Source: Pseudolabrys taiwanensis (lineage in GTDB: Bacteria; Pseudomonadota; Alphaproteobacteria; Rhizobiales; Xanthobacteraceae). From it: a stretch of 64,000 nt of DNA. This document shows positions 2,827 through 57,450 of this stretch, one piece after another. The stretch is taken from contig NZ_CP031417.1 of assembly GCF_003367395.1 (NCBI RefSeq), positions 124,001 through 188,000 on the forward strand, given 5' to 3'. Numbering within the stretch: the first letter of the stretch is position 1; the number at the start of each line of letters is the position of its first letter. The position numbers and the translations under genes are program-made. The notes beneath the pieces are model-generated. The model was not told where the DNA came from and ran no database searches. It saw nothing but the letters and a program-made list of their open reading frames with translations.

Positions 2827-2839
2827 GATCGGCGCGAGG

Positions 2840-5800
2840 TCAGTCGAAGCGCCCGGCCGCGTGCGCCAGCATGGTGTAGACCTTGCCGGTTTCCGACGTG
2901 AGATACGTGCGGGCCATCACTTGGCTGCGGTCGTCGCGCGAGACCTCGTCGAGCAGACGCTCGAACTCGCTGATGTAGCGGTCCACCGTCTGCTTGAATT
3001 CGCGGTCGGCGCGATACTTCTTGCGGATCTCGTCGAAGGCCTGCTGACCCTGCAGCGTATAGAGCCGGCGGGTGAACACGTTGCGTTCGCCGCGCTTGTA
3101 GCGGTCCCACAGATCGGCCGCGGCCTCGTGATCGATCATCCGCGCGATGTCGACCGAAAGGCTGTCGAGCGACTCGATCGAGTGGCGCGGCGTGCGATCC
3201 TCGTTGCCGCTGCGCATGCTGTCGCGGCCGGTGTCGCGCGGACGCGAGACGTCGCGGCTTTCACGCGGGAAGTCACGCGTCGGCTCGTCCTCGCGCGAGG
3301 CGCGGCTGAGCAGATCGGACAGCCAGCCGGTGCCCTGCGGCGTCGACGGCAGCGGCGACACGCTCGGCGGCTCCGGCGCGCGGCGCGCGGCCGGCGCGAA
3401 GTGCGCGGGCTCGCTGCGCAGCGGCGTGCGCGGCGCCGGCTCCGGACGGCTCGGCAGCTCGGTGCGGGCGGTTACCGTCTCGCCGCGACCGCCGGCGACG
3501 GCGAGCGTCGGCTCCTCGCGGACCCGTTGCGTCCGCACCGGCTCGACGGCGTCGAGGCTGCGGCCGTGGCGGGCGACGATGCGGTTGAGCTCGGCCAGCG
3601 CCTCGATCTGATCGACGATCACGCGGCGCATCTGCGCGGCGCTCTCGGCGGTCTCCTGCGGCAGTTCGAACACGCCGCGGCGCAGCTCGGCGCGGGTCTC
3701 TTCGAGTTCGCGCTGCATCTCCTGCGCCATCTGCTTCATGCCGCGGAGCGTATCGGCGAAGCGCTCGGTGGCTTCGCGGAAGAGGCCCTGCGTCTCGCCG
3801 CTGGCGCGGTCGTAGATGTTGCGCATCGCCTCGGCCGCCTCGCGGCGTTCGCTCTCGGCGTGTTCGCGCAGACGATCGTACTGTTCGCTGAGCGTGCGGG
3901 CGCCGTCTGCGCTCGACTCGGTGACGACGCGCGCCACTTCCTCGGCCTGGTTGCGAACGCGCTCGAATTGTTCGCTGACCGCGCGCGTGCCTTCGGCGCT
4001 CGTTTCCGAGACGACGCGGGCGACGTCGCGGGCGCGGCCGGCGGCGGCTTCCAGCGTTTCGTCGAGCAGGGACGAGAAGCGCTTGAGGCGCTGCTCGAGA
4101 TCGTTGGTGCGCACGTCCATCGTCGTGACGAGCTGGTCGAGCTGACCGCGGCGCTCGCCGAGGCTCGCCTCGGTGCGCTGGTTGCTGACCTCGATCTGCT
4201 CGGCCGCCTTGGCGAGCTCCTGGCCATGCGCGCTGAACTGATGCGCGAGCTGGCCGAGATTGCTCAGCACTTCGCCGGTGACGTGGCGGAAGTTGCCGAT
4301 GTTGGTTTCCACCTGCGCGGCCGCCGCGCCGGTCGAATTGTTGACCTCGTTCATGGCGGCGACGAACTCGGACACGCGCATCATCAGCGTGTTCTCGAGC
4401 GTGCTCATGTTCTCGTGCGAGCCCGAGAGCACTTCCTGCAGGAGGATGTTGGCCTCGCGCAGGCGCTCGAACAGCGCCGTGCTGTCGGAGCGCAGCATGT
4501 TGTGCGTCTCCAGCATGTCGGCGACCGCCTTGCTCGCGGTGTCCTTGGAGACGGCGATGGCCCGCTCGGCGGTGCCGTGCAACTCGCTGAGGGTGCGGTT
4601 GACGGTGCTCGCGGCGTTCTCGCCGGCGGCGTTGATGAGACGGGTGATCTCCGAGGAGTTCTCGATCATCGAGCGGGTGAAGACGAAGCCCTTCTCCTCG
4701 ATCGAGGACATGGCGTTGTCGGTGGCCTGGGTGATCTCCTGGGCGAACTGCTGACCCTTCTCGGTGATGGCGCCGAGCAGACCGCTGCTCTTGTCCGACA
4801 GCAGGATCTCGAGTTCGCTGGCGCGCTGGCTGACGGCCGACGAGATCTCGTTGGCGTTCTCGACGAAGTTGCGGGCGACGACATCGCTGACGCCGACGAG
4901 CGAACGTTCGGCTTCGCCGGCGCTCTTCTGGATCGCCTCGGCGGCGGTGAGGGCGAGTTGACCGAGCGAGCGCTCGGCCTCGCTGGCGTTGACCTTGATG
5001 GTGTGGCTGAGCTGCTCCATGCGCACATGGATGGCGTCGGCCGCGGACCGCGTACGGTTCTCGATTTCGCCGGTGACCGCTTCGGCGCGGGTCAGCAGCA
5101 GATCTTCGAACCGGCTGATGCGCGTGTCGAGGGTGTCGGCGACTTCGTCGGCGCGCGCGCCGAGCGCGCGGTCGATCTCGCCGACCTTGGCGCTGATGGT
5201 ATCGGCGACCTGCGTGCCGCGGCTGTCGATGGCGGCGGCAAGCTGCGCGCCGCGCGTATCGATGATCGACGCCATCTGCGCGCCGCGTGTGTCGATGAGC
5301 GATGCGACCTGAGCGCCGCGCGAGTCGAGGAGCGAGGCGAGCTGCGCGCCACTGGAGTCGAGGAGGGAGGCCACCTCGACGCCACGCGAGCCGATGGTCT
5401 CGGCGATCTTCGTGCCGCGCGTATCGATCGTATCGGCGACCTCCGCGCCGCGCGCGGCGATCGTCTCCGCGACCTGACGGCCGCGGCTGTCGATGGTCTC
5501 GGCCACCGCGCCGACGCGGGCGTCGAGCGCATCGACGACGTCCTTGCCGCCATCGGTGAGCGTCTTGACGATGTTGCCGGTGCGCGCGCTCAGCATGTCG
5601 TCGAACTTGACGAGCCGCTGGTCCAGCGCGCCCGATACTTCCTCGGTGCGGCCGGCGACGCGCTGGTCGAACGAGTCGATATACGAGCGCATGGCCTCGG
5701 AGACGTCCTGCGTGCGCTGGCCGAGGCGCTCGACGAGCTCGCCGCCATAGGTTTTCACCGTGTTGTCGAACTCGGCGATGTGGCGGGTGATCAGGGTGCC

Positions 5801-7372
5801 CAAGGTCGTCGCGTCGCGCGCGACCTTCTCGGAGAGGGCGGTGCCGCGGCTGTCGAACAGTTCGTCGAAAGCCTGCAGACGCTGCTCCAGAATCTCCTTC
5901 ATCGCGTTGCCGCGATTGTCGATGGTCTGCACCAGCGTTTCGGCATTGTCGTGGAAGGTGTCGGCCACGGTGTTGCTGCGGGAGACCAGCGCTTCCGCCA
6001 CCTGCTTGCCGGTATGCTCGATCTTCGACACGACATCGCTGCCGCGCTGCGACAGGTCGTTGACCACGGCATCGCCGCTCGCGCGCAGCGCCGCGTTCAC
6101 TTCGTCGGTGCGCGCGGTGATGGTGTCGGCGATACGGGCGGTGGTCTCGGTCACCGAGTTGGTGAACTGCTGCGAGCGGATCGCCATGTTGTCGATGGTG
6201 GCGGTGCTGCGCTGTTCGAAGCCCTGCGCTACCTGATCGAGCCGCGTCGTCATCATCTGCTGCAGGCGCGCCGCCATGTCGGCGAACTCGTCGTGCACCG
6301 TCTCCGAGCGGAACTTGAGGCTGTCGGTCAGGCGTTCGCTGGCCGAGGCGATCGCGGTGGTGGCGCGGTCGCTGGTCGATTCCAGGCGCTCGAGCAAAGT
6401 GGAGCCGCGCTCGCTCAACGTGTCGATCATCGAGTCGCCGGCATGGCCGAGCGCGAGGGTGATGTGCTCGCCCTTTTCGGTGAGCGTGCGGGTGACGCGC
6501 TGCGCGACTTCGCTGACCTTGTCGGCGACGAGATCGCCGACCGAGGTGATGTCGTGCGACAGATCGAGGTGCACGCTGGAGATGGCGTTGCGTACCTGCT
6601 CGGCCTGATTGACCAAAGTCTCGCGTTGATTGGCGAGCTCGTTGAGCAGGTCGCGGATGCGCACTTCGTTGTCGTTATAGGCGCGCTCGAGCGCCGAGAC
6701 TTCGTTGTGCACCAGGGCCTCGAGTTCCGCGGCGCGGGCGAGGGCGCGCTCGACGCCGTCGCCCATGGCGGCGACTTCGCGGCGGATCGCCTGGCCGACG
6801 GTCACGACCGACTCGCGCGCGGCGATTTCCGGCTGCGCCAGACGCACGGCGACCTCCGCCATGGACTCGGCGACGATGCGCATGTCCTGCGTGCGGCGGA
6901 CCATATGCGCGAGCGCATAGAAGAAGACGAGCGGCAGGACGATGGCGGCAATGACGGCCGCGGCGGCAGCGATGCCGAGACGCGGCGTCGCCATCATCGC
7001 CTGGAGTTCCGGCAAATAGAGATAAGCGACTGCAACGCCGCCGATGGCCCAGACGCAGGAGGCAATGGCTGCGGCGACATAAGGTCCGCGGCTCGGCTTG
7101 CGGTTCAGGCTCTGCAGGATCTGGCCGATATAGGCACGGTCGTCATTGGCGGCTCGGCGCGGGCCTTCGTCGGTCCACTCCGGCGCGGGTGTGTCTTCGT
7201 GAAACAGATCGGCCGCGACGGCCGGCGCCGTGCTGGGCGCGGAGGACTCGCGTTCGGGGGCGGCCACGGGCGGCGCCTGTTTGGGTTCCACCGGGCGGAT
7301 GGCGAGCGCCTCTTCGATGGCGTTCAGCGCCTCTTCCGTGGGATCCTTGGATTTTTGCGAGATGTTCGCCAT
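2840..7372 (-). CDS. Giant membrane-anchored coiled-coil protein, GPR/RgsE-like (growth-pole ring)
   Basis: A 1510-residue protein. Residues 1-95 are acidic and Pro/Ala-rich. Two membrane helices follow at about 98-120 and 132-155. Almost everything after that is predicted coiled coil with very few prolines, up to a Pro-rich stretch around 1290-1400. A conserved-looking globular helical end follows (about 1400-1510; ARMIDHEAAADLWDRYKRGE). Residues about 627-725 hold nine consecutive 11-residue repeats of the form D(S/T)RGxQ(V/L)AxxI. Large proteins of this design, sometimes annotated apolipoprotein A1/A4/E-like, are known in Hyphomicrobiales as GPR (Agrobacterium) and RgsE (Sinorhizobium), needed for polar growth. 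The assignment is by architecture from memory; an unrelated giant coiled-coil protein is the alternative. The gene has its own terminator and a long upstream spacer. Confidence 0.72.
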   Translation of the reverse strand: MANISQKSKDPTEEALNAIEEALAIRPVEPKQAPPVAAPERESSAPSTAPAVAADLFHEDTPAPEWTDEGPRRAANDDRAYIGQILQSLNRKPSRGPYVAAAIASCVWAIGGVAVAYLYLPELQAMMATPRLGIAAAAAVIAAIVLPLVFFYALAHMVRRTQDMRIVAESMAEVAVRLAQPEIAARESVVTVGQAIRREVAAMGDGVERALARAAELEALVHNEVSALERAYNDNEVRIRDLLNELANQRETLVNQAEQVRNAISSVHLDLSHDITSVGDLVADKVSEVAQRVTRTLTEKGEHITLALGHAGDSMIDTLSERGSTLLERLESTSDRATTAIASASERLTDSLKFRSETVHDEFADMAARLQQMMTTRLDQVAQGFEQRSTATIDNMAIRSQQFTNSVTETTARIADTITARTDEVNAALRASGDAVVNDLSQRGSDVVSKIEHTGKQVAEALVSRSNTVADTFHDNAETLVQTIDNRGNAMKEILEQRLQAFDELFDSRGTALSEKVARDATTLGTLITRHIAEFDNTVKTYGGELVERLGQRTQDVSEAMRSYIDSFDQRVAGRTEEVSGALDQRLVKFDDMLSARTGNIVKTLTDGGKDVVDALDARVGAVAETIDSRGRQVAETIAARGAEVADTIDTRGTKIAETIGSRGVEVASLLDSSGAQLASLLDSRGAQVASLIDTRGAQMASIIDTRGAQLAAAIDSRGTQVADTISAKVGEIDRALGARADEVADTLDTRISRFEDLLLTRAEAVTGEIENRTRSAADAIHVRMEQLSHTIKVNASEAERSLGQLALTAAEAIQKSAGEAERSLVGVSDVVARNFVENANEISSAVSQRASELEILLSDKSSGLLGAITEKGQQFAQEITQATDNAMSSIEEKGFVFTRSMIENSSEITRLINAAGENAASTVNRTLSELHGTAERAIAVSKDTASKAVADMLETHNMLRSDSTALFERLREANILLQEVLSGSHENMSTLENTLMMRVSEFVAAMNEVNNSTGAAAAQVETNIGNFRHVTGEVLSNLGQLAHQFSAHGQELAKAAEQIEVSNQRTEASLGERRGQLDQLVTTMDVRTNDLEQRLKRFSSLLDETLEAAAGRARDVARVVSETSAEGTRAVSEQFERVRNQAEEVARVVTESSADGARTLSEQYDRLREHAESERREAAEAMRNIYDRASGETQGLFREATERFADTLRGMKQMAQEMQRELEETRAELRRGVFELPQETAESAAQMRRVIVDQIEALAELNRIVARHGRSLDAVEPVRTQRVREEPTLAVAGGRGETVTARTELPSRPEPAPRTPLRSEPAHFAPAARRAPEPPSVSPLPSTPQGTGWLSDLLSRASREDEPTRDFPRESRDVSRPRDTGRDSMRSGNEDRTPRHSIESLDSLSVDIARMIDHEAAADLWDRYKRGERNVFTRRLYTLQGQQAFDEIRKKYRADREFKQTVDRYISEFERLLDEVSRDDRSQVMARTYLTSETGKVYTMLAHAAGRFD
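5195..5494 (-). repeat. Nine tandem 33-bp (11-codon) repeats inside the GPR-like gene
   Basis: Degenerate direct repeats with a 33-bp period encode units such as DSRGAQVASLI, DTRGAQMASII, DTRGAQLAAAI and DSRGTQVADTI. Eleven-residue (hendecad) periodicity gives a straight or slightly right-handed coiled coil. The DNA copies are similar enough to be a site of repeat-number change. Confidence 0.85.
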
Positions 7373-7763
7373 ACGCTGCCGCCTCGTTACTTCGTCCGGG
7401 CCGCAACCGTAACGTCAAACGAGGCCGCGCTGCGAACAGCTGCGCCGCCATCGCCCATCCGTCCAGCCGCCGCTCAAGCCCCGTTAACCGCCGGCGTTAA
7501 TCCTATCGCGCTGAGTGTGCGAAAGAAACCACGCCGGTAAGGAGTTTTTAATCATCGTTAATGAGAGTTAGGCATAACTCCCACAGGCTTTCTGCGGCAA
7601 TCATGGCGGCTGAAATGCGGCTAGGATACGGCCGCAGGGCGGCCGGCCGCTCACGCGGTTACGGGCGGCTTAACCGGCGGGACGGGAGGTACGGGCTTAT
7701 TTACCTCGCTTTACGCTTCTCGCGGCGACACTCGGGACGCCAAAAGACAGTGGGGGATAAGTC
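7373..7763. other. Intergenic region between the divergent GPR-like and Hpt genes
   Basis: 391 bp with no credible gene. It contains TTAA-rich elements: TTAACCGCCGGCGTTAA near 7490 (half-sites nine bases apart) and TTTA-N7-TTAAT at 7547-7562, which resembles the CtrA box TTAA-N7-TTAA with one or two mismatches. Either divergent gene could be controlled from here. The 7610-7700 stretch is GC-rich with no recognisable site. Confidence 0.5.
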
Positions 7764-8150
7764 ATGGCGCAAGCTGCACCGAAGATGTTGGAGGCACCGG
7801 CGGCCGTGTCCGACGCGGGCATCGATCGTGAGCACCTATCGCGGCTGACCTTCGGGGATCAGCAGCTCGAACGGGAACTGCTGGTCTTGTTCGACCAGCA
7901 GGCCGCTGTGCTGCTGCCGCGCATGCAGACGGCGGACATGGCCTCGGTGGGCGCCCTGGCCCATACGCTCAAGGGTTCGGCCCTGGGTGTCGGCGCCTTT
8001 GCCGTCGCGGAGGCGGCAGGGGCGGTGGAGCAGGCGCGCGATCCCGCCGCACTCAGAGAGGCCATCGCGCGCCTTGGGGTTGCGATTGCCGGGGCGCGCG
8101 CGCACATCGCCGTGCTGTTAGCCGTGGACGGCGCGGGCGGGAAGGGATAG
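7764..8150 (+). CDS. Hpt domain phosphotransfer protein
   Basis: A 128-residue protein that is essentially one histidine-phosphotransfer four-helix domain. The phosphorylatable histidine is His67 in [13 protein letters not shown]. Hpt proteins relay phosphate between response-regulator receiver domains. There is no kinase or receiver gene next to it, so partners cannot be named. It starts with ATG after GGGGGA at 7751-7756. It is divergent from the GPR-like gene; in this order stand-alone Hpt proteins are often part of phosphorelays encoded elsewhere. Confidence 0.87.
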
Positions 8151-8224
8151 CGCGCCCGCCAGATTGCCTATATAGGGACCTCGGCCCGCCAATTCCGGCC
8201 GGGTCCTTCCTCCCAACTGTTCTT

Positions 8225-8545
8225 ATGCCAAAGATCACCTTCATTGATTTCGGCGATACCGCGCGTACCGTCGATGCCGACCTGGGCTCCACCGTGATGG
8301 AGACCGCGATCCGCAACAACATTCCGGGCATCGAGGCCGAGTGCGGTGGCGCCTGCGCCTGCGCGACCTGTCACGTCTATGTCGACGAGGCCTGGCGCGA
8401 GAAGGTCGGCGGTCCCTCGCCGATGGAAGAGGACATGCTCGATTTCGGTTATGACGTGCGCGAGAATTCGCGCCTGTCGTGCCAGATCAAGGTCACCGAC
8501 GAGATCGATGGTCTCGTCGTGCGCACGCCGGAGCGGCAGGCTTAA
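8225..8545 (+). CDS. 2Fe-2S ferredoxin (adrenodoxin/putidaredoxin type)
   Basis: A 106-residue soluble ferredoxin. The cluster ligands are Cys40, Cys46, Cys49 and Cys86, in the spacing C-x5-C-x2-C ... C typical of vertebrate-type ferredoxins that serve P450s and Fe-S assembly. The sequence [14 protein letters not shown] and RLSCQI are diagnostic. Full length for the family. No P450 or isc gene is adjacent; it stands alone between the Hpt gene and an FAD monooxygenase, so its redox partner is unknown. Confidence 0.93.
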
Positions 8546-8568
8546 GGCTTCGCGCTACAGTCTTGGTT

Positions 8569-8698
8569 CCGTCATCCTGAGGTGCGAGCGATAGCGAGCC
8601 TCGAAGGATGGCGGCCGATGAGTTGCCACGCGGTGCCGCGCCTTGGCCGTCGCCTCTGGAGGGCCGTGCTACGCGCGGCCACCTCGGGGTGATGGGGA
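8569..8698. repeat. Interspersed palindromic element, type CCGTCATCCTGAGG
   Basis: The stretch begins CCGTCATCCTGAGGTGCGAG, has GAGCCTCGAAGGATGGCGGC after about 15 bases, and ends with CACCTCGGGGTGATGG, an imperfect inverted copy of its start. A second copy of the left half lies at 25638-25695. No coding capacity. It looks like a small non-autonomous repeat, possibly MITE-like. Confidence 0.7.
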
Positions 8699-8707
8699 GA
8701 GGTCGTC

Positions 8708-9943
8708 ATGAGCGCGCCGGTCGTTTCCACCACCTGCTGCATTGCCGGCGGCGGCCCGGCCGGCATGATGCTGGGCTTTCTCCTGGCGCGTGCCGGCGTA
8801 CCGGTTGTCGTGCTCGAGAAGCACGCCGACTTCCTCCGCGACTTTCGCGGCGACACCATTCATCCCTCGACGCTCGAATTGATGCACGAGCTCGGGCTGA
8901 TCGACGAATTCCTCAAGCTGCCGCATTCGCGCGTCGATCGTCTTTCCGGCCAGATCGGCGACACGCACGTCACCATCGCCGACTTCACCCACTTGCCGAC
9001 GCATTGCCGCTTCGTGGCGCTGATGCCGCAATGGGACTTCCTCGATTTCCTCGCCGCGCAGGGCAAACGTTATCCGACGTTCGATCTGCGTATGCGCGCG
9101 CAAGCGACGGGGCTCATCGAGGAAGGTGGTCGTGTCGCGGGCGTGCGCGCGCATACGCCCGAGGGCGACATCGAAATCCGCGCCGATCTGACGGTCGCCT
9201 GCGACGGCCGCCACTCGACCTTGCGCGAGGCCGCCGGCTTCGCCGTCGACAGCATCGGCGCGCCGATGGACATTCTCTGGTTCCGCCTCTCGCGCAAGCA
9301 GGGCGATACGGCGGAGACGTTCGGCCATATCGAAGCGAGCCGCATGATGATCATGCTCGACCGCGGCGACTACTGGCAATGCGCCTATGTCATTGCGAAG
9401 GGTGGATTCGACGCAGTGAAGACGCGCGGGCTAGATGCCTTCCGCGCGACCGTCGTCGGCATGTCGCCGTTCGTCGAAGACCGCATCGGCGAGATCGCGA
9501 CTTGGGACGACGTGAAGCTGTTGACGGTCGCCGTCGATCGTCTGCCGCGCTGGCATAAGCCCGGACTGCTCTGCATCGGCGACGCGGCGCATGCGATGTC
9601 GCCGGTCGGCGGCGTCGGCATCAATTTGGCGATCCAGGATGCGGTCGCGGCGGCGAACATTCTCTGGCAGCCGTTGCGCGATAAGACGGTGGGCGAAGCG
9701 GACTTGCACAGAGTGCAGGAGCGCCGCGAATTCGCGGTACGTGTCACGCAGCGCCTGCAGGTGTTCATCCAGAACAAAGTGATCACCTCGGCGCTCAACA
9801 CGACAGCGCGGCCGCGGGCGCCGTTTGCCGCCAAGTTGTTCAATTGGTTCCCGCTGTTGCGCCGGATTCCCGCGCGCCTCATCGGCATGGGCGTCAGGCC
9901 CGAGCACGTGCATACGCCTGAGGCTGCTCTCACGTCACATTGA
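8708..9943 (+). CDS. FAD-dependent aromatic-type monooxygenase (PHBH/UbiH class)
   Basis: A 411-residue flavoprotein. The dinucleotide-binding motif is GGGPAG (residues 14-19), followed by the acidic end of strand beta2 (VVVLEKHADFLRDFRGDTIHP). The DG motif (TVACDGRHSTLRE) and the GD motif (CIGDAAHAMSPVGGVGINLA) are both present, which defines class A flavoprotein monooxygenases. The substrate is not evident: no aromatic-degradation genes are nearby, and similar proteins are annotated only as FAD-dependent oxidoreductases. The gene converges on cobC with a 14-bp overlap of the 3' ends. Confidence 0.88.
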   Translation: MSAPVVSTTCCIAGGGPAGMMLGFLLARAGVPVVVLEKHADFLRDFRGDTIHPSTLELMHELGLIDEFLKLPHSRVDRLSGQIGDTHVTIADFTHLPTHCRFVALMPQWDFLDFLAAQGKRYPTFDLRMRAQATGLIEEGGRVAGVRAHTPEGDIEIRADLTVACDGRHSTLREAAGFAVDSIGAPMDILWFRLSRKQGDTAETFGHIEASRMMIMLDRGDYWQCAYVIAKGGFDAVKTRGLDAFRATVVGMSPFVEDRIGEIATWDDVKLLTVAVDRLPRWHKPGLLCIGDAAHAMSPVGGVGINLAIQDAVAAANILWQPLRDKTVGEADLHRVQERREFAVRVTQRLQVFIQNKVITSALNTTARPRAPFAAKLFNWFPLLRRIPARLIGMGVRPEHVHTPEAALTSH

Positions 9944-10496
9944 CGGTGCGGACACGCCAGCCCTGGTCAAGGCGGTCGATCTGCGTCAACGACAGTGGAT
10001 CGATGACGAAGCGCAACGCGTTCTCCGCCGGCAGATCGAGCGCGATGGCAAGGATGGCGCGGATCGTACCAGAGTGGATGACCAGCGCGACGTCGCCCGT
10101 GGGCAAGGCCGGCAGACAATCCCGCACGCGCGCGATCTGATCGTCGAAGCTTTCGCCGCCGGGCGGCCGGTTGGTGGCGGGCCTGCGCCAGAAGTCGGCG
10201 TAGGCGGGACCGAGCTCGGCTTCGATCTCGGTATGGCGGCGGCCTGTCCAGACGCCGAAGTTCTGTTCGCGCAGGCGCGGCTCCGGTGTCGGCGTCAGGC
10301 CGAGCGCGGTGGCGGTTTCCATGGTCCGGCGCGCTGGGCTGGCAAAGACCGCGAGCGCTTTCGGCAGGCGTTCGCGCACCACCGCCAAGGCTGTGCTGTT
10401 GCTCAGATCGGCCGGTGCGTCGGCATCGTGGATGATGCCGTGCGGCCGCGCGACCGGCGCGTGCCGGATCAACCAGAAGCGCTGCTCGGCGCTCAT
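9930..10496 (-). CDS. cobC: Histidine phosphatase, alpha-ribazole phosphatase-like (CobC)
   Basis: A 188-residue phosphoglycerate-mutase-family phosphatase with the catalytic LIRHAP (Arg11-His12) and later VIHSGTIRA. The start at 10496 is set by MSAEQRFWLIRHAP and by the four-base ATGA overlap with the cobS stop; the open frame continues upstream but only as a shadow of cobS. With cobS on the same strand and cobT divergent, it fits removal of the 5' phosphate from alpha-ribazole phosphate in the lower-ligand part of cobalamin synthesis. Without that context it would be just a generic histidine phosphatase. Confidence 0.87.
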   Translation of the reverse strand: MSAEQRFWLIRHAPVARPHGIIHDADAPADLSNSTALAVVRERLPKALAVFASPARRTMETATALGLTPTPEPRLREQNFGVWTGRRHTEIEAELGPAYADFWRRPATNRPPGGESFDDQIARVRDCLPALPTGDVALVIHSGTIRAILAIALDLPAENALRFVIDPLSLTQIDRLDQGWRVRTVNVT

Positions 10497-11254
10497 GAAG
10501 CAATGCCCATGCGCGCGGCGACAAGCAATAGCACGGCGGTTTCCGCCACTTGCTGCGCGCCGCCGAGCACGTCGCCGGTGTAGCCGCCGATCTGGCGCCA
10601 CGCGATCCATGCGACGGCGCAGACGGCTGCGATGGCGCCGACGATGGCCGGAACGGCGGTTGCGAACGGCAGGCAGACGAGCGCAATGACGACGGCGAGT
10701 GCCGCCGCGACGGTGGCAATGGTTGCATCGGGGCGTCCGGCGCTGGCACCGAGGCCGTCGCTGCGGGCCGGCGGCAGATACAACGCGACCGCCGGTAGGA
10801 AGCCGCGCGACAGCGCGTGCGCGGCGATGAGGCCGGTCAACGCCGTGGCATTCGGCAAGCTTGCGAGCGCGGCGACTTTGCTGACGCAGGCGACGATCAG
10901 GATCAGCGTGCCGTAGGTGCCGATGCGGCTGTCGCGCATGATCTCGAGCTTGGCGGCCTTGTCGCGGCCGCCGCCGAAGCCGTCGGCCAAATCGGCGAGG
11001 CCGTCCTCGTGAAAGCCGCCGGTGAGCCACATGCCGGCGCCGAGCGCGAGCGCCGCCGCGGCCAGGGCCGGCAAGCCCGCGGCATGCAGACCCCAGAACG
11101 CCAACCCGATGACGGCGCCAACGCCGGCGCCGACGAGCGGCATCAGGCGTTGCGCGCGCACGAAATTATCCGGCGATGCGCCATCCGGATGGGGCATCGG
11201 AATGCGTGTCAGCATCGCCACGGCGACACGAAAGTCGTCGAGCCACTCGTTCAT
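10493..11254 (-). CDS. cobS: Adenosylcobinamide-GDP ribazoletransferase (cobalamin synthase)
   Basis: A 253-residue polytopic membrane enzyme that joins adenosylcobinamide-GDP and alpha-ribazole (phosphate), the last step of cobalamin assembly. The acidic motif GGFHEDGLADLADGFGGG (residues 80-97) is the family hallmark, followed by hydrophobic segments. The start chosen is ATG at 11254 (MNEWLDDFRVAVAMLTRIP); the frame continues 96 bases further but into the cobT start region. It is translationally coupled to cobC downstream and lies 37 bp from the divergent cobT start. Confidence 0.95.
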   Translation of the reverse strand: MNEWLDDFRVAVAMLTRIPMPHPDGASPDNFVRAQRLMPLVGAGVGAVIGLAFWGLHAAGLPALAAAALALGAGMWLTGGFHEDGLADLADGFGGGRDKAAKLEIMRDSRIGTYGTLILIVACVSKVAALASLPNATALTGLIAAHALSRGFLPAVALYLPPARSDGLGASAGRPDATIATVAAALAVVIALVCLPFATAVPAIVGAIAAVCAVAWIAWRQIGGYTGDVLGGAQQVAETAVLLLVAARMGIAS

Positions 11255-46001: not shown

Positions 46002-46817
46002 TTAGCTGAACAACTTCAGAACGTTCTGGTCGGCCTGCGAAGCCAGCGACAAGGCCGTCGTCGACAGCTGCTGGCGGGTCTGCAGGGCGAGCAGGTTCGC
46101 GCCTTCTTCGTTGCTGTCCGCCAGCGTCAGGTTGTCGGCGCCGGTGTTGAGCGTGTTGATCATCGCCTTGGTGAAGTCCTGGCGGATCTGCACGGTCTGC
46201 AGGTTCGAGCTCAGGGCTTGCGACTGCGAGCGGAGTTTGGTCAGCGCGGCGGTCAACTCGGTCGAAGCGGCGGTGATATCGGCCGACGTCGCCCAGCCGT
46301 TGGCCGAGGGGTTGACGGTGAGGTCGCCGCCCGTGGTGTCATTGACCGCCGTGATCGTGACCGACGATGTCGCGGACTCGTTCAAGGTGATGGTCAGGTC
46401 GTTGCCGCCGAGCAGGTTGACGCCGTTGATGCCGGCGTCGCCGGCAAGCTGGTCGATCTGCGAGCGGATCGAATCGAATTGGCTCGCGAGCGTCGCGCGC
46501 ACGTTGGTGTCGCCCGTCTGCTGCGCCTGGCTGGCCAGCGACTGAGCCGATTGCACCAGCTTGGTGATCGCCGTGATGCCGTTATTGGCGGCCTGGATGG
46601 TGTTGATGCCCGTCGACATGGTGTCGAGCAGCGCGTTCAGATCGTTCGCGCGCACGTTCAGGCTCTGGGCCGTGAAGTAGTTGATCGGGTTGTCGAGAGC
46701 CGAATTGACCCGGCGTCCGGTCGCGAGCTTGGTCTGAGTCGAGGTAATTAAATCGGACGTTTGTTGTAGCTGCAGCAGGTTCGAACGAACGCCTGCTGAA
46801 AGAACGATGTCACTCAT
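46002..46817 (-). CDS. Flagellin, copy 1
   Basis: A 271-residue short flagellin. N-terminus MSDIVLSAGVRSNLLQLQQT, LATGRRVNSALDNPINYFTA; C-terminus ANLLALQTRQQLSTTALSLA, SQADQNVLKLFS. The D0 and D1 helices are complete, and the middle is only a small domain. Nearly identical ends to copy 2 (46993-47805), with divergence in the centre (e.g. ITLNESATSSVTITAVNDTT), so the two arose by duplication. Short flagellins of this sort are typical of alphaproteobacteria. Confidence 0.95.
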   Translation of the reverse strand: MSDIVLSAGVRSNLLQLQQTSDLITSTQTKLATGRRVNSALDNPINYFTAQSLNVRANDLNALLDTMSTGINTIQAANNGITAITKLVQSAQSLASQAQQTGDTNVRATLASQFDSIRSQIDQLAGDAGINGVNLLGGNDLTITLNESATSSVTITAVNDTTGGDLTVNPSANGWATSADITAASTELTAALTKLRSQSQALSSNLQTVQIRQDFTKAMINTLNTGADNLTLADSNEEGANLLALQTRQQLSTTALSLASQADQNVLKLFS

Positions 46818-46937
46818 TGCTGGCTCCATGCCGGAAAATATCGCTGAACGGCGGGCCGATAGTGATTTATTAGGGTTGATAGAGGGTTAAAGGGCTCCTT
46901 TTTGGTAACCGGATATTAGCCATAATCGCCTTGTGAA

Positions 46938-46992: not shown

Positions 46993-47805
46993 TTAGCCGA
47001 ACAGGCGGAGCACGTTCTGGTCGGCCTGCGAGGCGAGCGACAGAGCGGTCGTCGACAGCTGCTGGCGGGTCTGCAGGGCGAGCAGGTTGGCGCCTTCCTC
47101 GTTGGAGTCGGCGAGGGTGAGGGCGTCCGAACCGGCCTGCAGCGTGTTGATCATCGCCTTGGTGAAGTCCTGGCGGATCTGCACGGTCGACAGGTTCGAG
47201 CTCAGGGTCTGCGACTGCGAACGAAGGGTCGACAACGCGGCCGTGAGGTCCGTGCCAGCGGTGGTGATGTCCGCGGTGGCGGCCCAGCTGTTGGCGGCGG
47301 CGTTGATGGCCAGACCGGTCGAGGTGTCGGTCACGCCGCTGACCGTCGTGCTCGAGGTCGCCGTCTCGTTCAGCGTAACCGTGAGGTTGTCGCCGTTGAG
47401 CAGGTTGGTGCCGTTGAAGCCGGCGTCGCCCGCGAGCTGGTCGATCTGAGTACGGATCGCATCGAACTGCGAGGACAGGCTGGCGCGGGTGGCGGTATCC
47501 GACGTCTGCTGGGCCTGGCTGACCAGCGACTGGGCCGACTGGACCAGCTTGGTGATCGCCGTGATGCCGTTGTTGGCGGCCTGAATGGTGTTGATGCCGG
47601 TGGACATGGCATCGAGCAGGTTGTTCAGGTCGCTGGCACGGTTATCGAGGCCCTGCGCCGTGAAGAAATTGTTGGCGTTGTCGAGGGCCGAGTTGACGCG
47701 CTTGCCGGTGGCGAGCTTGGTCTGGGTGGAGGTGATCAGGTCCGAAGTCTGCTGCAGCTGAAGCAGGTTCGAACGGACGCCTGCGGAGAGAACGATCTGA
47801 GACAT
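46993..47805 (-). CDS. Flagellin, copy 2
   Basis: A 270-residue short flagellin. MSQIVLSAGVRSNLLQLQQT, LATGKRVNSALDNANNFFTA, C-terminus SQADQNVLRLFG. It is paralogous to copy 1, with the same D0/D1 and a different small central part. It has its own terminator and a separate upstream region holding two small hairpins. Filament made of mixed flagellins is likely. Confidence 0.95.
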   Translation of the reverse strand: MSQIVLSAGVRSNLLQLQQTSDLITSTQTKLATGKRVNSALDNANNFFTAQGLDNRASDLNNLLDAMSTGINTIQAANNGITAITKLVQSAQSLVSQAQQTSDTATRASLSSQFDAIRTQIDQLAGDAGFNGTNLLNGDNLTVTLNETATSSTTVSGVTDTSTGLAINAAANSWAATADITTAGTDLTAALSTLRSQSQTLSSNLSTVQIRQDFTKAMINTLQAGSDALTLADSNEEGANLLALQTRQQLSTTALSLASQADQNVLRLFG

Positions 47806-51528: not shown

Positions 51529-51942
51529 ATGTTGGCGAAGAACAAAAACTACCGGCCTTCCGACAAGGAGCCGTTCATGAACGAGCGCCAGCGCGAGTAC
51601 TTCCGTGCGAAGCTCCTGGCCTGGCGCGAGGACATTCTGAAAGAGGCCAAGGAAACCCTGCAGCATCTGCAGGAGGAAAATCAGAATCATCCGGACCTGG
51701 CCGACCGGGCCTCGTCCGAGACCGACCGTGCCATCGAACTGCGCGCCCGCGACCGGCAGCGCAAGCTGATCGCCAAGATCGACGAGGCGCTTGGCCGGAT
51801 CGACGATGGCACCTACGGCTACTGCGAAGAGACCGGCGAGCCGATCTCGTTGCGCCGTCTCGAGGCGCGTCCGATCGCGACCTTGTCGGTGGAAGCGCAG
51901 GAGCGCCATGAGCGCCGCGAGCGCGTCTATCGCGACGACTGA
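51529..51942 (+). CDS. dksA: RNA polymerase-binding protein DksA (one-cysteine form)
   Basis: A 137-residue DksA. Coiled-coil arms hold the tip residues (about 25-95), and the globular end has GYCEETGEPISLRRLEARPI, ATLSVEAQERHE. Of the four zinc cysteines only Cys99 is present; the others are Thr102, Ser120 and Ala123, so it probably binds no zinc. This is the normal pattern for alphaproteobacterial DksA. It modulates transcription with ppGpp. A terminator follows. The gene lies in the flagellar cluster but is a general regulator. Confidence 0.93.
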   Translation: MLAKNKNYRPSDKEPFMNERQREYFRAKLLAWREDILKEAKETLQHLQEENQNHPDLADRASSETDRAIELRARDRQRKLIAKIDEALGRIDDGTYGYCEETGEPISLRRLEARPIATLSVEAQERHERRERVYRDD

Positions 51943-51976
51943 CGACGCGGTTGGCCTGATTTCAGGGCGAATTTTG

Positions 51977-52006
51977 ATCCCTCGGCCCTCGGCCGGGGGA
52001 TTTTTC
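51977..52006 (+). terminator. Rho-independent terminator of dksA
   Basis: Stem ATCCCTCGGCC / GGCCGGGGGAT (one G-T wobble), loop CTC, then TTTTCG. Confidence 0.85.
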
Positions 52007-52055
52007 GTTACCCTCGGGTCCGTCGTGATTCGCTTTCCTTCGCCGGTTCGTCGCC

Positions 52056-53675
52056 ATGGCCCGTCATCACTCGCAACCGGTTGTGGATCTAGCGTCGCTG
52101 CTTGAAACGGCGCGCGCGGCTCACGGCGAGGGCGCCTGGGCGCGGGCGGAGAAGCAGTACAAGGCCATTCTGGCGCGCGATCCCCGGCACGTCGAAGCGC
52201 TGCATCTATTCGGCCTTCTCCACTACCAGACGGGGCGGTCGGCGCAGGCGTTGCGCTACCTGGCCGAGGCCTTGAAGGGCGGCATACCCTCGGCGGATCT
52301 GTGGTCCGATCACGGTCTCGTCCTCTATGCGCTGGGCCGCGCCGACGAAGCGCTGGCGAGCTTCGATGCGGCGCTCGCGCTCGCACCGGACGATCCCGAT
52401 TTGCTCAGCAAACGTGGCGTCGCCTGTCTGCATCTCGGCCGGTTGCAGGAAGCGCTCGGCGCCTTCGACCAGGCGCTCGCGCGCGAGCCGGCGCATGTCG
52501 ATGCCCTGGGCAATCGCGGCAACGCGATGCTCAAGCTCAACGAGCCGGAACAGGCGATCGCCAGTTACGACGCGGCCATCCGGATCAAGGGCGCGACCGC
52601 GCGCCTCCTGACCAACCGGGCGCATGCATTGAAGCGGCTGGACCGGTTGGATGAGGCGCTTGCCGATCTGCAGCAGGCGCTGGCGATCGAACCGAACTTC
52701 GCGGAAGCGGCTTTCGAACGCGGAATGGTGCAGCTGGCGCTGGGCGATTTCGAAAACGGCTGGGCGTCATATGAGCGGCGCTGGGAGACGGGCGCCTTCG
52801 CCGAACACCGTCGCAACTTCTCATCGCCGCAATGGACCGGCCGCCAATCCTTGAGCGGCCGCACCATCCTGCTGCACGCCGAGCAGGGCTTCGGCGACAC
52901 GATCCAGTTCGTCCGCTATGCGCCGCTCGTGCAACGTCTCGGCGCGACGGTCGTGCTCGAAGTGCAGCCGGAGCTTGTGCGCCTGATGGCGCGCGTGCCC
53001 GGCGTCGATCGCGTCGTGGCGCGCGGCAGCAAGCTCGCCGCCTTCGACTTTCATTGTCCGCTGATGAGCTTGCCGCTGGCGTTCAAGACGACGGCGGCGA
53101 CCGTGCCGGCATCGATCCCTTACATCGATCTCGATGACGCCAGTATGGCGGAATGGGCGAAGCGATTGCCGGCGGGCAACCCGCGCGTCGGCTTCTGCTG
53201 GGCCGGCAAGGCCGGCCATCGCAACGATATCAACCGCTCGATTCCCTTGGCGCGTTTTGCCGCCCTGCTCGACAGGCCCGACATCGATTTCGTCAATCTG
53301 CGCGTCGGCCTGAGCGACGACGAACGCGCTATATTGAGCACTCGCGCGAATGTGCTCGACTATTCGGCGCAGCTGACGGACTTCGACGACACCGCCGGTC
53401 TCATCAAGCAGCTCGATCTCGTCGTGTCGGTCGATACCTCGGTCGTGCATCTCGCCGGCGCACTGGGCGTACCGGCGGTCGTCATGCTGCCTTTCGCGGC
53501 CGATTTCCGCTGGCTGCGAACAGGGGGCACGAGCGCCTGGTATCCGGGCATGAGTCTGTTGCGCCAGCCGCGGCTGAAGGACTGGGACAGCGTGATCGAT
53601 GCGGCGCGCGACCTGCTGGCAGAATTAACAACTTACCGCGTATTCACTGCGGTCCCGGCAATCGTCCTCAAGTAG
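52056..53675 (+). CDS. TPR-glycosyltransferase-like protein (FlmG type)
   Basis: A 539-residue protein. Residues about 10-260 are six or seven TPR repeats (AEKQYKAILARDPRHVEALH, ALASFDAALALAPDDPDLLS, and so on). A GT-B-fold-like region follows (GRTILLHAEQGFGDTIQFVR, VVLEVQPELVRLM; C-terminal half LVVSVDTSVVHLAGALGVPA, VVMLPFAADFRWLRTG). The order TPR then GT-B-like resembles FlmG of Caulobacter, which glycosylates flagellin using its TPR part to bind it. FlmG identity is inferred from architecture and from location in the flagellar cluster next to flagellins. A general O-linked glycosyltransferase-like TPR protein is the alternative. Confidence 0.75.
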   Translation: MARHHSQPVVDLASLLETARAAHGEGAWARAEKQYKAILARDPRHVEALHLFGLLHYQTGRSAQALRYLAEALKGGIPSADLWSDHGLVLYALGRADEALASFDAALALAPDDPDLLSKRGVACLHLGRLQEALGAFDQALAREPAHVDALGNRGNAMLKLNEPEQAIASYDAAIRIKGATARLLTNRAHALKRLDRLDEALADLQQALAIEPNFAEAAFERGMVQLALGDFENGWASYERRWETGAFAEHRRNFSSPQWTGRQSLSGRTILLHAEQGFGDTIQFVRYAPLVQRLGATVVLEVQPELVRLMARVPGVDRVVARGSKLAAFDFHCPLMSLPLAFKTTAATVPASIPYIDLDDASMAEWAKRLPAGNPRVGFCWAGKAGHRNDINRSIPLARFAALLDRPDIDFVNLRVGLSDDERAILSTRANVLDYSAQLTDFDDTAGLIKQLDLVVSVDTSVVHLAGALGVPAVVMLPFAADFRWLRTGGTSAWYPGMSLLRQPRLKDWDSVIDAARDLLAELTTYRVFTAVPAIVLK

Positions 53676-53792
53676 TTTCCGCGTTGTGGGCCCCGGATCT
53701 ACGAAAAGCGGCCGGTTGGATTGACTATCAACCTAAACTTAATGGTAGTATTGTTTGCAGTATCAATCCTAGGTCGAATTGCGAGGTCGGCG

Positions 53793-54725
53793 ATGCCAGC
53801 ACTAGATTTTGCCTATGTCGATACAATTGATGCTTGCCAGCTAAGATGCCCAACCTGCGTGCGCGGCGTGCGAGTCATGGATAATTCGAGTGCGAAGATG
53901 CCGCTCGGAAAATTCGAGGTTCTGGCAAAAAAATTGAAGGATGCCGGTTATCGACGCTTTGGGCTTTTTAATTGGACTGAGCCATTCTTAAATAGAACTT
54001 TGGAAGACTACATTGCAGTCGTCAAAAATTATGGATTTCAGTGCTGGGTTTCAACGACATTTTCTCTGCGTCATATTGATAATCTCGAAAGATCATTGTT
54101 GGCGGGCATAGATCGATTGGTAGTTTCTACGTCGGGAATGACTCAACGTGTCTATGAGGTCAATCACGTCGGCGGCAATCTCCAATACGCGATGGATAAT
54201 GCAAGGCGTGTTTCCGAACTCGTGAAGCGCCATAAATTGGAAATGATGTCTTATTGGCGGTTTATCAAGTTTGAGTACAACGTTTTCGAAGAGGAAATTG
54301 CCAAAGCATTTGCTGAAGAAATCGGCTTCTTCTTCGAAGCGCTTCCCGGAGTTGGCGATCCAAAAGTGTCAGATCAGCGCCGGTTCAACAATCAATTCTA
54401 TATCGCTGAATCTGATCGCGGACGAAGTCTTCCTTCCCCGGAGATGGCGGGCCAGACGTGCAGACTTATGATGGACCAAGTTGCAATTGATTCCGCTGGC
54501 GATGTGTTTCTCTGTTGCGCCATGCCAAATGTCCCGGCGTTGAAAATCGGCGCCTATCTGGAAATGCCGGAACACGAAGTACTTCGTGCGCGGTTGCAAC
54601 ACAATTTTTGCCGTAGCTGTACGAACCCACGTCGGGTGGCGACCGAGGAAGATCGAGAGAGAATTCGGGAGGCCGGGCTTGAACTTTCTGTCGGATCGTC
54701 GGGCCTCCCTATGTTTCCCAGGTGA
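53793..54725 (+). CDS. Radical SAM protein with SPASM-like C-terminus, AT-rich
   Basis: A 310-residue protein. The radical SAM cluster motif is C15-x3-C19-x2-C22 (DACQLRCPTCVRG). Late cysteines in GQTCRLMMDQ, VFLCCAMPN and NFCRSCTNP suggest a SPASM or Twitch domain with further Fe-S binding. It acts on an unknown peptide or sugar-linked substrate. I start at ATG 53793 (GAGG nearby); the frame to 53721 has no ribosome site. The gene is far less GC-rich than all neighbours, as is the gene that converges on it with a 17-bp overlap, which suggests transfer as a pair into the flagellar cluster. Confidence 0.83.
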   Translation: MPALDFAYVDTIDACQLRCPTCVRGVRVMDNSSAKMPLGKFEVLAKKLKDAGYRRFGLFNWTEPFLNRTLEDYIAVVKNYGFQCWVSTTFSLRHIDNLERSLLAGIDRLVVSTSGMTQRVYEVNHVGGNLQYAMDNARRVSELVKRHKLEMMSYWRFIKFEYNVFEEEIAKAFAEEIGFFFEALPGVGDPKVSDQRRFNNQFYIAESDRGRSLPSPEMAGQTCRLMMDQVAIDSAGDVFLCCAMPNVPALKIGAYLEMPEHEVLRARLQHNFCRSCTNPRRVATEEDRERIREAGLELSVGSSGLPMFPR

Positions 54726-55467
54726 GTTGACAGGCATATCGCGGCTTTCGGCAGACGATAACATCGGTAAACTCACCCAGAATCCCGTGTTCGCGGTCCA
54801 CGAAACGAAAAAGCTCAACGTCGAATGGGGCCCACTTGGCCAGCAGCTCGGGGAAATCATGTCCATAGGAAGCGGTCACCAGAGAACCTTTGCTGCTAAT
54901 CGGATTGCCATGGTACTCGGGAGGTTTCTTCAGATATTCAATATCGCCGTCTCGCCCGTGTCTTGCCTGGAATACTGATTTGACGTGCTGTTTAAAAACG
55001 CCCGTCGTCAATATACTGAGGCCACCTGGAACAAGAGTGCGGAAGATTTCGGCCGTCGCTCGTATTGGGTCCAAGATGTGTTCATAGACATCCTGTGTAA
55101 TCACAATATCGAATAAGCAATCGGCGAAAGTCTGCTTCTCAAGGTTCTCGCACCGGAATTTTCCGATTGTCTTTCCAAGAGGCTCGTTCGGGAAGTATTG
55201 GGTAGGGATGTAACCTGCACATTCTTTAGCGAGAACGACTGATAGACCTCGCTCCGCTGGAGATGATTCATGGACTCGTTTGGCCCGCCAATCGGGACAG
55301 AGGCGCTTCATCACAAACGCTATAGCGCGCTCGCGCGGAAGCGAGCCGCCGGGGCAGGTCTTGCAAACGAGTCCTGCGCGGAAATCCCACCAGCGCGAAC
55401 TGTGGCTGTGGAACGTGGCCAAGTGATCGCAGATAGGACAGAAGCCCTCATATTTAAACTCTTGCAT
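54709..55467 (-). CDS. Zinc-ribbon SAM-dependent methyltransferase, AT-rich
   Basis: A 252-residue protein. The N-terminal zinc ribbon has Cys10, Cys13, Cys35 and Cys38 (CPIC...CKTC). The methyltransferase core has weak motif I but clear post-motif I-type sequences DCLFDIVITQDVYEHILDPI and FRTLVPGGLSILTTG, typical of Methyltransf_11/23 in sugar or polysaccharide modification. Its base composition is like the radical SAM gene and unlike the flagellar genes around it. The two genes converge with a 17-bp overlap. Acceptor unknown. Confidence 0.8.
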   Translation of the reverse strand: MQEFKYEGFCPICDHLATFHSHSSRWWDFRAGLVCKTCPGGSLPRERAIAFVMKRLCPDWRAKRVHESSPAERGLSVVLAKECAGYIPTQYFPNEPLGKTIGKFRCENLEKQTFADCLFDIVITQDVYEHILDPIRATAEIFRTLVPGGLSILTTGVFKQHVKSVFQARHGRDGDIEYLKKPPEYHGNPISSKGSLVTASYGHDFPELLAKWAPFDVELFRFVDREHGILGEFTDVIVCRKPRYACQLTWET

Positions 55468-55554
55468 GGTGTCATCTAGGTTGATTTAAAAAATTATTCA
55501 ACCCTTTTGCTGTGAGCCTTCACCAGTGTGTCCCCCGCGCGCAAAATGAACACG

Positions 55555-55590
55555 GCCTCCGGCAGGGGAGCTACCGGAGGCCGCGTCGTG
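55555..55590. terminator. Possible terminator hairpin after flgH
   Basis: CGGCCTCCGG / CCGGAGGCCG form a perfect ten-base stem with an 11-base loop. On the minus-strand transcript it lies about 80 bases after the flgH stop; the T run is weak (GTTCATTTTG), so this may be only a hairpin. Confidence 0.5.
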
Positions 55591-55667
55591 TACGCCGTTT
55601 CCGCTCGCGAGACGAAAGCGGCGCGGGAGATCGTGGCCTCGGCCGATGAAGGCCGAGGCGCGAAACG

Positions 55668-56417
55668 TTAGAAGGGCAGGATCACGTCCAAGACCTGCTG
55701 GCCGTAGCGCGGCTGTTGCACATCGGTGATCTGGCCGCGGCCGCCATAGGCGATGCGCGCTTGCGCGATCTTCGAAGAGTCGATGGTGTTGTCGCTCTGG
55801 ATGTCTTCCGGACGCACGATGCCGGCGACGATCAGTTCGCGAATTTCGAAATTGACGCGAATTTCCTGCTTGCCTTCGACCACCAGGTTGCCGTTCGGCA
55901 GCACTTGCGTGACCACGGCGGCGACGTTGGTCTGCAACGCTTCGGAGCGGTTCACCGAGCCCTTGCCTTCGCTGGCGGCGGTGGCGTCGGCGGTGAGGAT
56001 GCGGCCGGGCAGAATAGCCTTCGCCGGGTTGACGATGGTCTTGCTGCCGATGAAGTCGCTGACGCCCGAGTCCTCGGTATTGGATCGGCTGCGCTTGGTC
56101 TCGTTGTCGATGATGGCCTTGTCGGTGATGTTGACCGAGACCGTCAGGATGTCGCCGATCTGATGCGCGCGCTGGTCCTTGAAGAAGGCGCGCGAACCGT
56201 TCCGCCACAGCGAGTTCGGATTGTACGAAGCGGGCTGCGCCGCCGGCATCGGCATCTGCACCGGCTTGTAGCCGGGGCGCGCGGTGGGATTGTCGACCGC
56301 AGCCAGCGCCGGCGGCGAGCCGATGTCCTTGAGGCGGTCGATCGCCGAGCAGCCGCTCAAGAGCGTCAGCATTGTCGACGCGAGGAGGATGGGACGCAGG
56401 ACGGATTGGCGTTGCAT
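55668..56417 (-). CDS. flgH: Flagellar L-ring protein FlgH
   Basis: A 249-residue outer-membrane lipoprotein with lipobox LSGC (Cys about 22). The pattern SLWRNGSRAFFKDQRAHQIG, DILTVSVNITDKAIIDNETK and NLVVEGKQEIRVNFE is diagnostic. It forms the L ring with FlgI in the outer membrane. I start at 56417 (MQRQSVLRPIL); the longer frame has a non-signal N-terminus. Last gene of flgF-flgG-flgA-flgH; 37 bp follow flgA. Confidence 0.95.
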   Translation of the reverse strand: MQRQSVLRPILLASTMLTLLSGCSAIDRLKDIGSPPALAAVDNPTARPGYKPVQMPMPAAQPASYNPNSLWRNGSRAFFKDQRAHQIGDILTVSVNITDKAIIDNETKRSRSNTEDSGVSDFIGSKTIVNPAKAILPGRILTADATAASEGKGSVNRSEALQTNVAAVVTQVLPNGNLVVEGKQEIRVNFEIRELIVAGIVRPEDIQSDNTIDSSKIAQARIAYGGRGQITDVQQPRYGQQVLDVILPF

Positions 56418-56454
56418 CGGTGTCACTTTCACAAGGGGCGCCTCGCGGCGCGGT

Positions 56455-57450
56455 CTAGTTCTGGCCGGGCAGGGCGGCATTGGCGACAATGCGGTTGCCC
56501 TGCGTGGTAATCACGACGCGGCCGGGGCCGGCGATGACGCCCTGCAGCGTGCGTTTGGATTGTTCGTTGAGGACGGAGATCACGTCGCCTTCGGCGCCGC
56601 CTTCCATGGCTTTGCCGCGGACCGAGAGCGTGACGCCTGGCACTTCGTAGATCAGCATCACGACTTCGTTCCGTGCGATGGTGTCGGGCCTCGCCAATTC
56701 GGCGGCACGCAGCATGTTGCCCGCCTGCTTGGGGACCCGCAATGAAAGACCGACAACCTGGCTGCGATCGGTCAAGGCTTCGCGTCCGACTTCAGCGCGC
56801 GGTCGACGCTCAAGCACGACGTCGGAATCCTTGATCACGGCGCCGCGCTCGAGGGTGCGTGCGATCGTCAGCACCTCCGCCGTCACTTGCGCCCGCCCGG
56901 CGATGCGCAGCAGGCCGTGCTTGCCGTTGCCGGTCGGCATTTCGAGGCTCGCATCGAAGCGGCCGCCGCGGTCGAGGCCGATATGCGCGACGCGCGGCTG
57001 GCCGATGGCGTTGGGCTCGACATAAACCGTCTGCAGGTCGCGATCGAAGGTGATGGTGATGTCGTTCGGATTGCCGAAGTTGAACTGCACGGCGAGCGCA
57101 CGGACGATCGCGTCGCTGATATCCTTGGCGTGGATCGCGCGGGCGGCCCGCGTCACGGAGACTTCAGTCAGGCCGGCGGTGTCGATGTCGGCCAGGGCGC
57201 GGTTGCGCACCGCTTCCGCGACGGCTTGCGCCGGCACGGTGCCGGTGAAACCGAGATCGGGCGCGCGGAAGATCGCCACCTTGGCGAGCGCGCCGGCATT
57301 TTCGACGAGGTCGCCGACCAGCACGGTCGGACCGTGGACCGTCGCTTGCGCCTTCAGTACCGGACGGAATTCTTCCGTCGTGTCGGCTTGTTGTGCCGAG
57401 GCGCTGAAAGCGAGGAGCGTCGCGAAGGCCGCAATGGAGGCGCGGATCAT
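56455..57450 (-). CDS. flgA: Flagellar P-ring chaperone FlgA
   Basis: A 331-residue exported protein (signal MIRASIAAFATLLAFSASAQ). The C-terminal SAF-like region LERGAVIKDSDVVLERRPRA, with LRVPKQAGNMLRAAELARPD, matches FlgA. The family is usually about 220 residues; here the N-terminal part is longer, as in other alphaproteobacteria. FlgA helps P-ring assembly in the periplasm. It starts nine bases after flgG and is followed by flgH. Confidence 0.92.
   Translation of the reverse strand: MIRASIAAFATLLAFSASAQQADTTEEFRPVLKAQATVHGPTVLVGDLVENAGALAKVAIFRAPDLGFTGTVPAQAVAEAVRNRALADIDTAGLTEVSVTRAARAIHAKDISDAIVRALAVQFNFGNPNDITITFDRDLQTVYVEPNAIGQPRVAHIGLDRGGRFDASLEMPTGNGKHGLLRIAGRAQVTAEVLTIARTLERGAVIKDSDVVLERRPRAEVGREALTDRSQVVGLSLRVPKQAGNMLRAAELARPDTIARNEVVMLIYEVPGVTLSVRGKAMEGGAEGDVISVLNEQSKRTLQGVIAGPGRVVITTQGNRIVANAALPGQN

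Follow-up and report, generated by a model that had tools for sequence, protein, structure and literature searches.

A candidate acquired glycan-tailoring islet with a predicted Twitch-type radical SAM enzyme in the dksA-flgH gap of Pseudolabrys taiwanensis

The window analyzed here, a stretch of 64,000 nucleotides from Pseudolabrys taiwanensis (NZ_CP031417.1, positions 124,001 to 188,000; genome of 5.59 Mb on one contig), carries between dksA and flgH a single insert with three genes, which encode a tetratricopeptide repeat (TPR) protein with a glycosyltransferase (GT) domain, a radical S-adenosylmethionine (SAM) enzyme and a zinc-ribbon class I SAM methyltransferase. The explanation that we favor, with a probability of about one half, is that they constitute an acquired accessory islet for the tailoring of a glycan, located in a variable gap. 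The three-gene islet is likely to modify a sugar at the cell surface. Its acceptor is more likely to be a surface polysaccharide or a non-flagellar protein than flagellin, which is a possible target but not the favored one.

According to this explanation, the radical SAM enzyme would generate a 5'-deoxyadenosyl radical that abstracts hydrogen at a carbon of a sugar, either bound to a nucleotide or part of a glycan. With the enzyme's auxiliary cluster accepting the electron, an oxidized, epimerized or deoxygenated sugar would result. The methyltransferase would methylate this altered sugar or a neighboring one, and the TPR-GT would pass a sugar on to an acceptor, either protein or glycan. The radical SAM protein represents a rare, uncharacterized family, predicted to be of the Twitch type, which often accompanies methyltransferases and sugar-nucleotide or polysaccharide genes. 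If a member of this family does act on a surface sugar, radical chemistry would join the known glycan decorations; if the sugar were that of flagellin, no earlier case would be known in the open-licence literature searched.

The insert between dksA and flgH

The TPR-GT gene is located at 52056–53675 on the plus strand (539 amino acids [aa]; assigned by Pfam and by paralogs matched over the GT part). The radical SAM gene follows at 53793–54725 on the plus strand (310 aa; assigned by Pfam, alignment and structural model) and the methyltransferase gene at 54709–55467 on the minus strand (252 aa; assigned by Pfam and alignment). These two genes are convergent and meet tail to tail with a 17-bp overlap (54709–54725). 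Their GC contents were 0.48 and 0.52, respectively, compared to 0.66 for the TPR-GT gene. The GC content at third codon positions, referred to 46 mechanically picked open reading frames (ORFs) of at least 150 aa in the window (mean 0.80, standard deviation 0.09), was 0.49 for the radical SAM gene (z -3.5) and 0.57 for the methyltransferase gene (z -2.6), the two lowest values of the 46, and was average for the TPR-GT gene (z 0.1). An earlier sequence-only reading of this DNA had placed the three ORFs here (the radical SAM ORF being 53721–54725) and described the low-GC pair, its convergence and the overlap, all of which were confirmed.

When the nucleotide sequence was compared with the closest congeners (L227, L229), similarity ended at approximately 51942 and restarted at 55543–55553. 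The closest congener (G329), whose flgH is 85–86% identical, aligns through the end of dksA and then again from 55543. The segment from about 51945 to 55542, to which no strand is assigned, runs from the end of dksA to a conserved hairpin block and has no counterpart in these congeners. One insert contains all three genes. No repeat pairing its two edges was found. The proposal that the radical SAM and methyltransferase pair was acquired is supported by its composition, its absence from congeners and the boundaries of the insert.

On the left, outside the insert, lies dksA (51529–51942, plus strand; DksA_N 109 bits), and a terminator-like hairpin of 12 pairs followed by a T run is predicted 3' of it by a consensus scan (51976–52002, plus strand). 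On the right, also outside the insert, lies flgH (55668–56489, minus strand; FlgH 190.5 bits). The hairpin block that forms the right edge of the insert, before flgH (55543–55635, approximately 90 bases, no strand assigned), was 78–90% identical in all eight congener loci compared (L227, L131, L112, L074, L082, L130, L090 and L229). It is conserved although the rest of the dksA-flgH gap varies. The block may be a terminator that these loci have in common; it gave no hit in Rfam up to an expect value (E) of 0.1. Two flagellin genes of 270–275 aa lie 4.2–6 kb to the left of the TPR-GT gene, both on the minus strand (46002–46829, Flagellin_N 76 bits; 46993–47805, 73.9 bits). The flagellar-cluster setting described for the three genes needs a correction on the left side, where the neighbor, dksA, is no flagellar gene.

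The gap was also compared across the genus. A flgH gene was found in 30 of 43 genomes, own genome included (E up to 1e-60), and 20 of the other 29 had dksA and flgH on one stretch; the remaining nine did not, owing to a contig end or other genes. In none of the 20 congeners with a complete interval did the gap contain a match to the window's radical SAM or methyltransferase gene. The gap was shortest in G313 (182 bp) and longest in G028 (3.4 kb), and its content was a TPR protein bearing a GT41 domain in one genome (G007, L128), long ORFs in three (G005, G015 and G020, one of them with a GGDEF-like stretch read by eye), and short ORFs or nothing in the others. Among four order-level relatives, the gap was 170–323 bp in three (L092, L094 and L095), and dksA was not visible in the fourth (L093). 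A relative of the window ORF at 2097–2606, which has no Pfam match, occurs at 67–83% identity between dksA and flgH in the closest congener (L227, 1812–2343), and the two may be a repeated element.

In three further congeners, in which dksA was not seen, a sugar cassette (G019), a B12-type radical SAM gene (G008) and a methyltransferase (G016) were found beside flgH. The gene in G008 (L121, 3441–7534) encodes a B12-binding radical SAM protein of 691 aa and is accompanied by a 633-aa ORF without a Pfam match. The G019 cassette (L118, G019:C205:1400-14000, 722–9859) comprises a B12-binding radical SAM gene, a glycosyltransferase-like ORF, a gene resembling cytidine diphosphate (CDP)-glucose dehydratase, an RfbC-like gene, an epimerase, a SPASM radical SAM gene and a Glycos_transf_1 enzyme. 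Cassettes of this type recur away from flgH, with some gene differences, in G013, G034, G007, G027 and G023 (L151/L152, L153, L154, L155 and L156), of which G027 and G023 hold only a part on short contigs.

In the own genome the methyltransferase gave no second match at E up to 1e-3; for the radical SAM protein there was a single one, which was weak (E 1.2e-4). No close relative of either protein was found in the 35 congeners searched, the best matches being 7.8e-8 over 116 residues for the radical SAM protein and 1.9e-5 for the methyltransferase. With a radical SAM profile, 57 of 391 family genomes (own included) matched at E up to 1e-10. The only standouts were the own genome, G227 (1e-92) and G116 (6e-50); the next match was at 7e-28, and matches at this level and weaker, including the best one in a congener (3.8e-20, partial length), are taken as other subfamilies. 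The methyltransferase matched in 14 of the 391 family genomes (own included) at E up to 1e-12, near full length in G210 and G125, and is split by mobile-element genes in G298 (L216). Of the 385 genomes in the class-level set, own included, two had a close relative of the methyltransferase, at E up to 1e-40. The protein database yielded 82 radical SAM and 1280 methyltransferase matches, the window's own counted in each; the records of the rare radical SAM relatives include Proteobacteria, Acidobacteria and Nitrospirales, among others.

The two enzymes and the neighborhoods of their relatives

The radical SAM ORF scored 24.8 bits with the Radical_SAM model, under the Pfam cut-off of 29.5, and the protein has the CxxxCxxC motif and the partial barrel fold of the superfamily. 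The three motif cysteines (C15, C19 and C22) and five further cysteines were invariant in 36 of 36 aligned rows, and the structural model (mean predicted local distance difference test score 90.5) matched radical SAM enzyme structures. The ORF extends back to a TTG at 53721, but a start there is unlikely: the first residues of most aligned relatives fall close to the ATG at 53793, no more than a few residues away, and GAGG precedes this ATG at six bases.

PMC6231123 gives the seven-cysteine motif of SPASM proteins, which hold two auxiliary clusters, as C-x9-15-G-x4-C ... CxxC-x5-C-x3-C ... C. The window protein has the cysteines C223-x12-G236-x4-C241 and C273-xx-C276, and the later SPASM cysteines are absent, so that the full motif was not found in its sequence or alignment. 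Having the first four motif cysteines, the protein is predicted to be of the Twitch type with one auxiliary cluster. The description of the gene as radical SAM/SPASM-type was right as to radical SAM; the SPASM motif is incomplete, and the Twitch type is predicted instead.

The fold neighbors of the model include BlsE, DesII, BtrN and SpeY, which we take to be sugar or cyclitol enzymes. The Twitch dehydrogenases BtrN and SpeY oxidize a sugar or cyclitol carbinol. The methyltransferase is of class I and has an N-terminal Cys4 ribbon at residues 10, 13, 35 and 38, which are kept in 41, 41, 41 and 42 of 42 aligned rows, respectively.

The neighborhoods of relatives were examined in 16 radical SAM loci obtained from a scan of one genome per species, by Pfam scans of selected ORFs; L099 was assessed through its similarity to L098. 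Sugar or polysaccharide genes were found in six of the 16: Wzm/Wzt exporters in L101 and L103, glycosyltransferases in L104, L106 and L111, and relatives of CDP-glucose 4,6-dehydratase, RfbC and an epimerase in L107. In this last locus, from an alphaproteobacterial metagenome-assembled genome (MAG), the CDP-sugar cluster surrounds the radical SAM relative (5153–10846), a hint at its substrate. A methyltransferase was adjacent, near or fused in eight of the 16 (L096, L097, L101, L102, L103, L104, L106 and L111), being fused in L097, inside a multidomain neighbor in L101 and two genes away in L106. A relative of the window's own methyltransferase adjoins the radical SAM gene in two of the loci, L096 from Acidobacteria and L103 from a proteobacterial MAG, with 36% and 40% identity, respectively, over 240–245 residues. 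The pair is codirectional in both, whereas it stands tail to tail in the window.

On the methyltransferase side, relatives on plasmids were examined in four of the 11 plasmid records with a match (H4, H7, H9 and H11). Three of them (L220, L223 and L224) lie in capsule or polysaccharide loci, L223 being at most two genes from a polysaccharide pyruvyl transferase, and one (L221) is near insertion elements. The chromosomal relatives L214, L215 and L240 appear, by eye and from ORF starts, to be solitary amid housekeeping genes.

These findings place members of both families repeatedly in the vicinity of polysaccharide or nucleotide-sugar genes, and in two cases the families stand side by side. The sequence-only reading had held that homologs lying mostly in unrelated polysaccharide or peptide loci would refute a role in flagellin modification, and in part this is what was found, as the informative neighbors are methyltransferases and polysaccharide or nucleotide-sugar genes.

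The acceptor and competing explanations

Several results weigh against the glycan-tailoring explanation. No sugar gene was present among the scanned ORFs of 10 of the 16 radical SAM loci (L096–L100, L102, L105 and L108–L110), some of which have a methyltransferase. The count of sugar genes excludes AnmK and a hexapeptide transferase (both in L108), an amylase-type gene (L109) and, in L110, a distant dehydratase-like match that is approximately 8 kb away from the radical SAM gene. None of the eight methyltransferase-side loci (L214, L215, L216, L220, L221, L223, L224 and L240) had a radical SAM match. The peptide enzymes SuiB and SkfB tied at the best fold Z, with PqqE and anSME lower at Z 16–17. 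The TPR-GT gene is host-like in GC, has paralogs elsewhere in the genome and may be separate in origin from the pair.

An islet for flagellin modification, in which the TPR-GT puts a sugar altered by the radical SAM enzyme and the methyltransferase onto the two nearby flagellins, is improbable in our judgment. The fuller version, in which the Twitch enzyme and the zinc-ribbon methyltransferase remodel a flagellin sugar supplied through the TPR-GT and the gap repeatedly gains flagellar glycan genes (G007, G019 and G008), appears slightly more doubtful still. The distance of 4.2–6 kb to both candidate acceptors is consistent with such a role, and so is the layout of the protein, with TPR repeats to about residue 235 followed by a Glyco_transf_9 match of 29.9 bits (Pfam cut-off 22). 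We take Glyco_transf_9 to be a GT-B family, and the layout is that of FlmG. Low-GC inserts of similar gene content serve as flagellin glycosylation islands in Enterobacteriaceae (PMC4875605). In G007 the same gap holds a TPR gene with a different glycosyltransferase domain (GT41), and in G019 the neighbor of flgH is a glycan cassette that includes two radical SAM genes. In a Desulfovibrio MAG (L104, 2888–4799), a glycosyltransferase, a methyltransferase and the radical SAM relative are followed by a FliR-family gene, the only flagellar-type neighbor seen across the 16 loci. In contrast, when the TPR-GT, flagellin and several flagellar proteins other than FliR were compared by tblastn with 29 loci of radical SAM or methyltransferase relatives, 28 of them distinct (L211 is L102), nothing matched at E up to 1e-4. 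Recurrence of the pair beside TPR-GT or flagellin genes, which the sequence-only reading had proposed as a check, was not seen in these loci.

The own genome also speaks against flagellin. At least four TPR-GT paralogs, matching over the GT part, are located at 2.357, 0.871, 1.421 and 0.692 Mb in stretches (L135–L138) without a match to any flagellar label; among the matches listed, two further long frames (1.453 and 5.582 Mb) match through the TPR part alone. No TPR-GT match was found around the flagellins at 2.91–2.93 and 3.15–3.17 Mb, a weak match at 1.496 Mb being outside this comparison. Other flagellin-family matches, together with a second flgH (41%), are found at G000:C1:3154190-3167464 and 2914476-2923219 and suggest that the genome encodes one or more additional flagellar systems. 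NeuB (PF03102) had no match in the own genome and matched in nine of 14 control genomes, Caulobacter included, although another donor is possible for the TPR-GT. The gap also accepts unrelated genes in congeners, and no flagellar label was seen on the stretches of the five other G019-type cassettes. Of the proposed radical SAM and methyl transfer on flagellin or its glycan, the glycan fits many relatives, and the flagellin target is unsupported.

There are two further explanations. The genes may be passengers without linked function in a convergent-gene gap that tolerates inserts, to which we give a minor chance, similar to that of the fuller flagellin version. The varied or empty gaps of the 20 congeners, the tail-to-tail arrangement, which forms no operon, and the lack of radical SAM genes on the methyltransferase side are all as expected of such cargo. 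However, none of the three frames is interrupted, the conserved cysteines are retained, and the pair stands side by side again in two distant bacteria. Modification of a peptide or protein, with the radical SAM enzyme acting on a peptide or side chain and the methyltransferase methylating the same target, is quite unlikely. The fold matches to SuiB, SkfB, PqqE and anSME and the NCBIfam matches, mostly maturases and far under cut-off, are in line with it; against it, the barrel stands at the very start of the 310-aa model, with no additional domain ahead of it, and the informative neighbors of relatives are sugar genes and methyltransferases.

Comparison with known systems

The TPR-GT had been likened to FlmG of Caulobacter, a protein of 596 residues with TPR and GT-B parts, which is described in PMC7591256 as glycosylating flagellin with pseudaminic acid and for which that paper leaves the acceptance of other donors open. 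The likeness holds for the N-terminal TPR, the C-terminal GT-B and the similar length (596 compared to 539 aa), and is one of layout. It does not extend further, as Caulobacter has NeuB and pseudaminic acid, whereas NeuB was not found here and the window protein is one of several paralogs. Because NeuB is missing from the matches and at least four paralogs exist, the Caulobacter system is not applicable as such.

The flagellin glycosylation islands of Enterobacteriaceae, as presented in PMC4875605, resemble the insert in being low in GC, in having glycosyltransferases and methyltransferases and in lying in a flagellar region. They differ in position, being located between fliC and fliA, by the flagellin gene, and not between dksA and flgH. 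In the window the flagellins are 4.2–6 kb from the insert, and no known Pfam family of sugar biosynthesis is represented among its three genes. The word 'radical' does not occur in the main text of that paper. The statement that no radical SAM enzyme has been described in flagellin decoration held for the open-licence literature searched, in the passages covered.

The window protein shares the radical SAM barrel with BtrN, SpeY, DesII and BlsE at 14–18% identity over structural alignments, and it shares the C-x9-15-G-x4-C and CxxC cysteines with Twitch and SPASM enzymes. In the capsule-associated cluster of Campylobacter jejuni HS:19, a table entry in PMC8743553 shows a methyltransferase gene next to one for a radical SAM protein, in keeping with the glycan-tailoring explanation. 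The same two kinds of gene, by label, stand side by side in a glycan locus, and because both are listed there together, the pairing of a methyltransferase with a radical SAM gene is not unprecedented.

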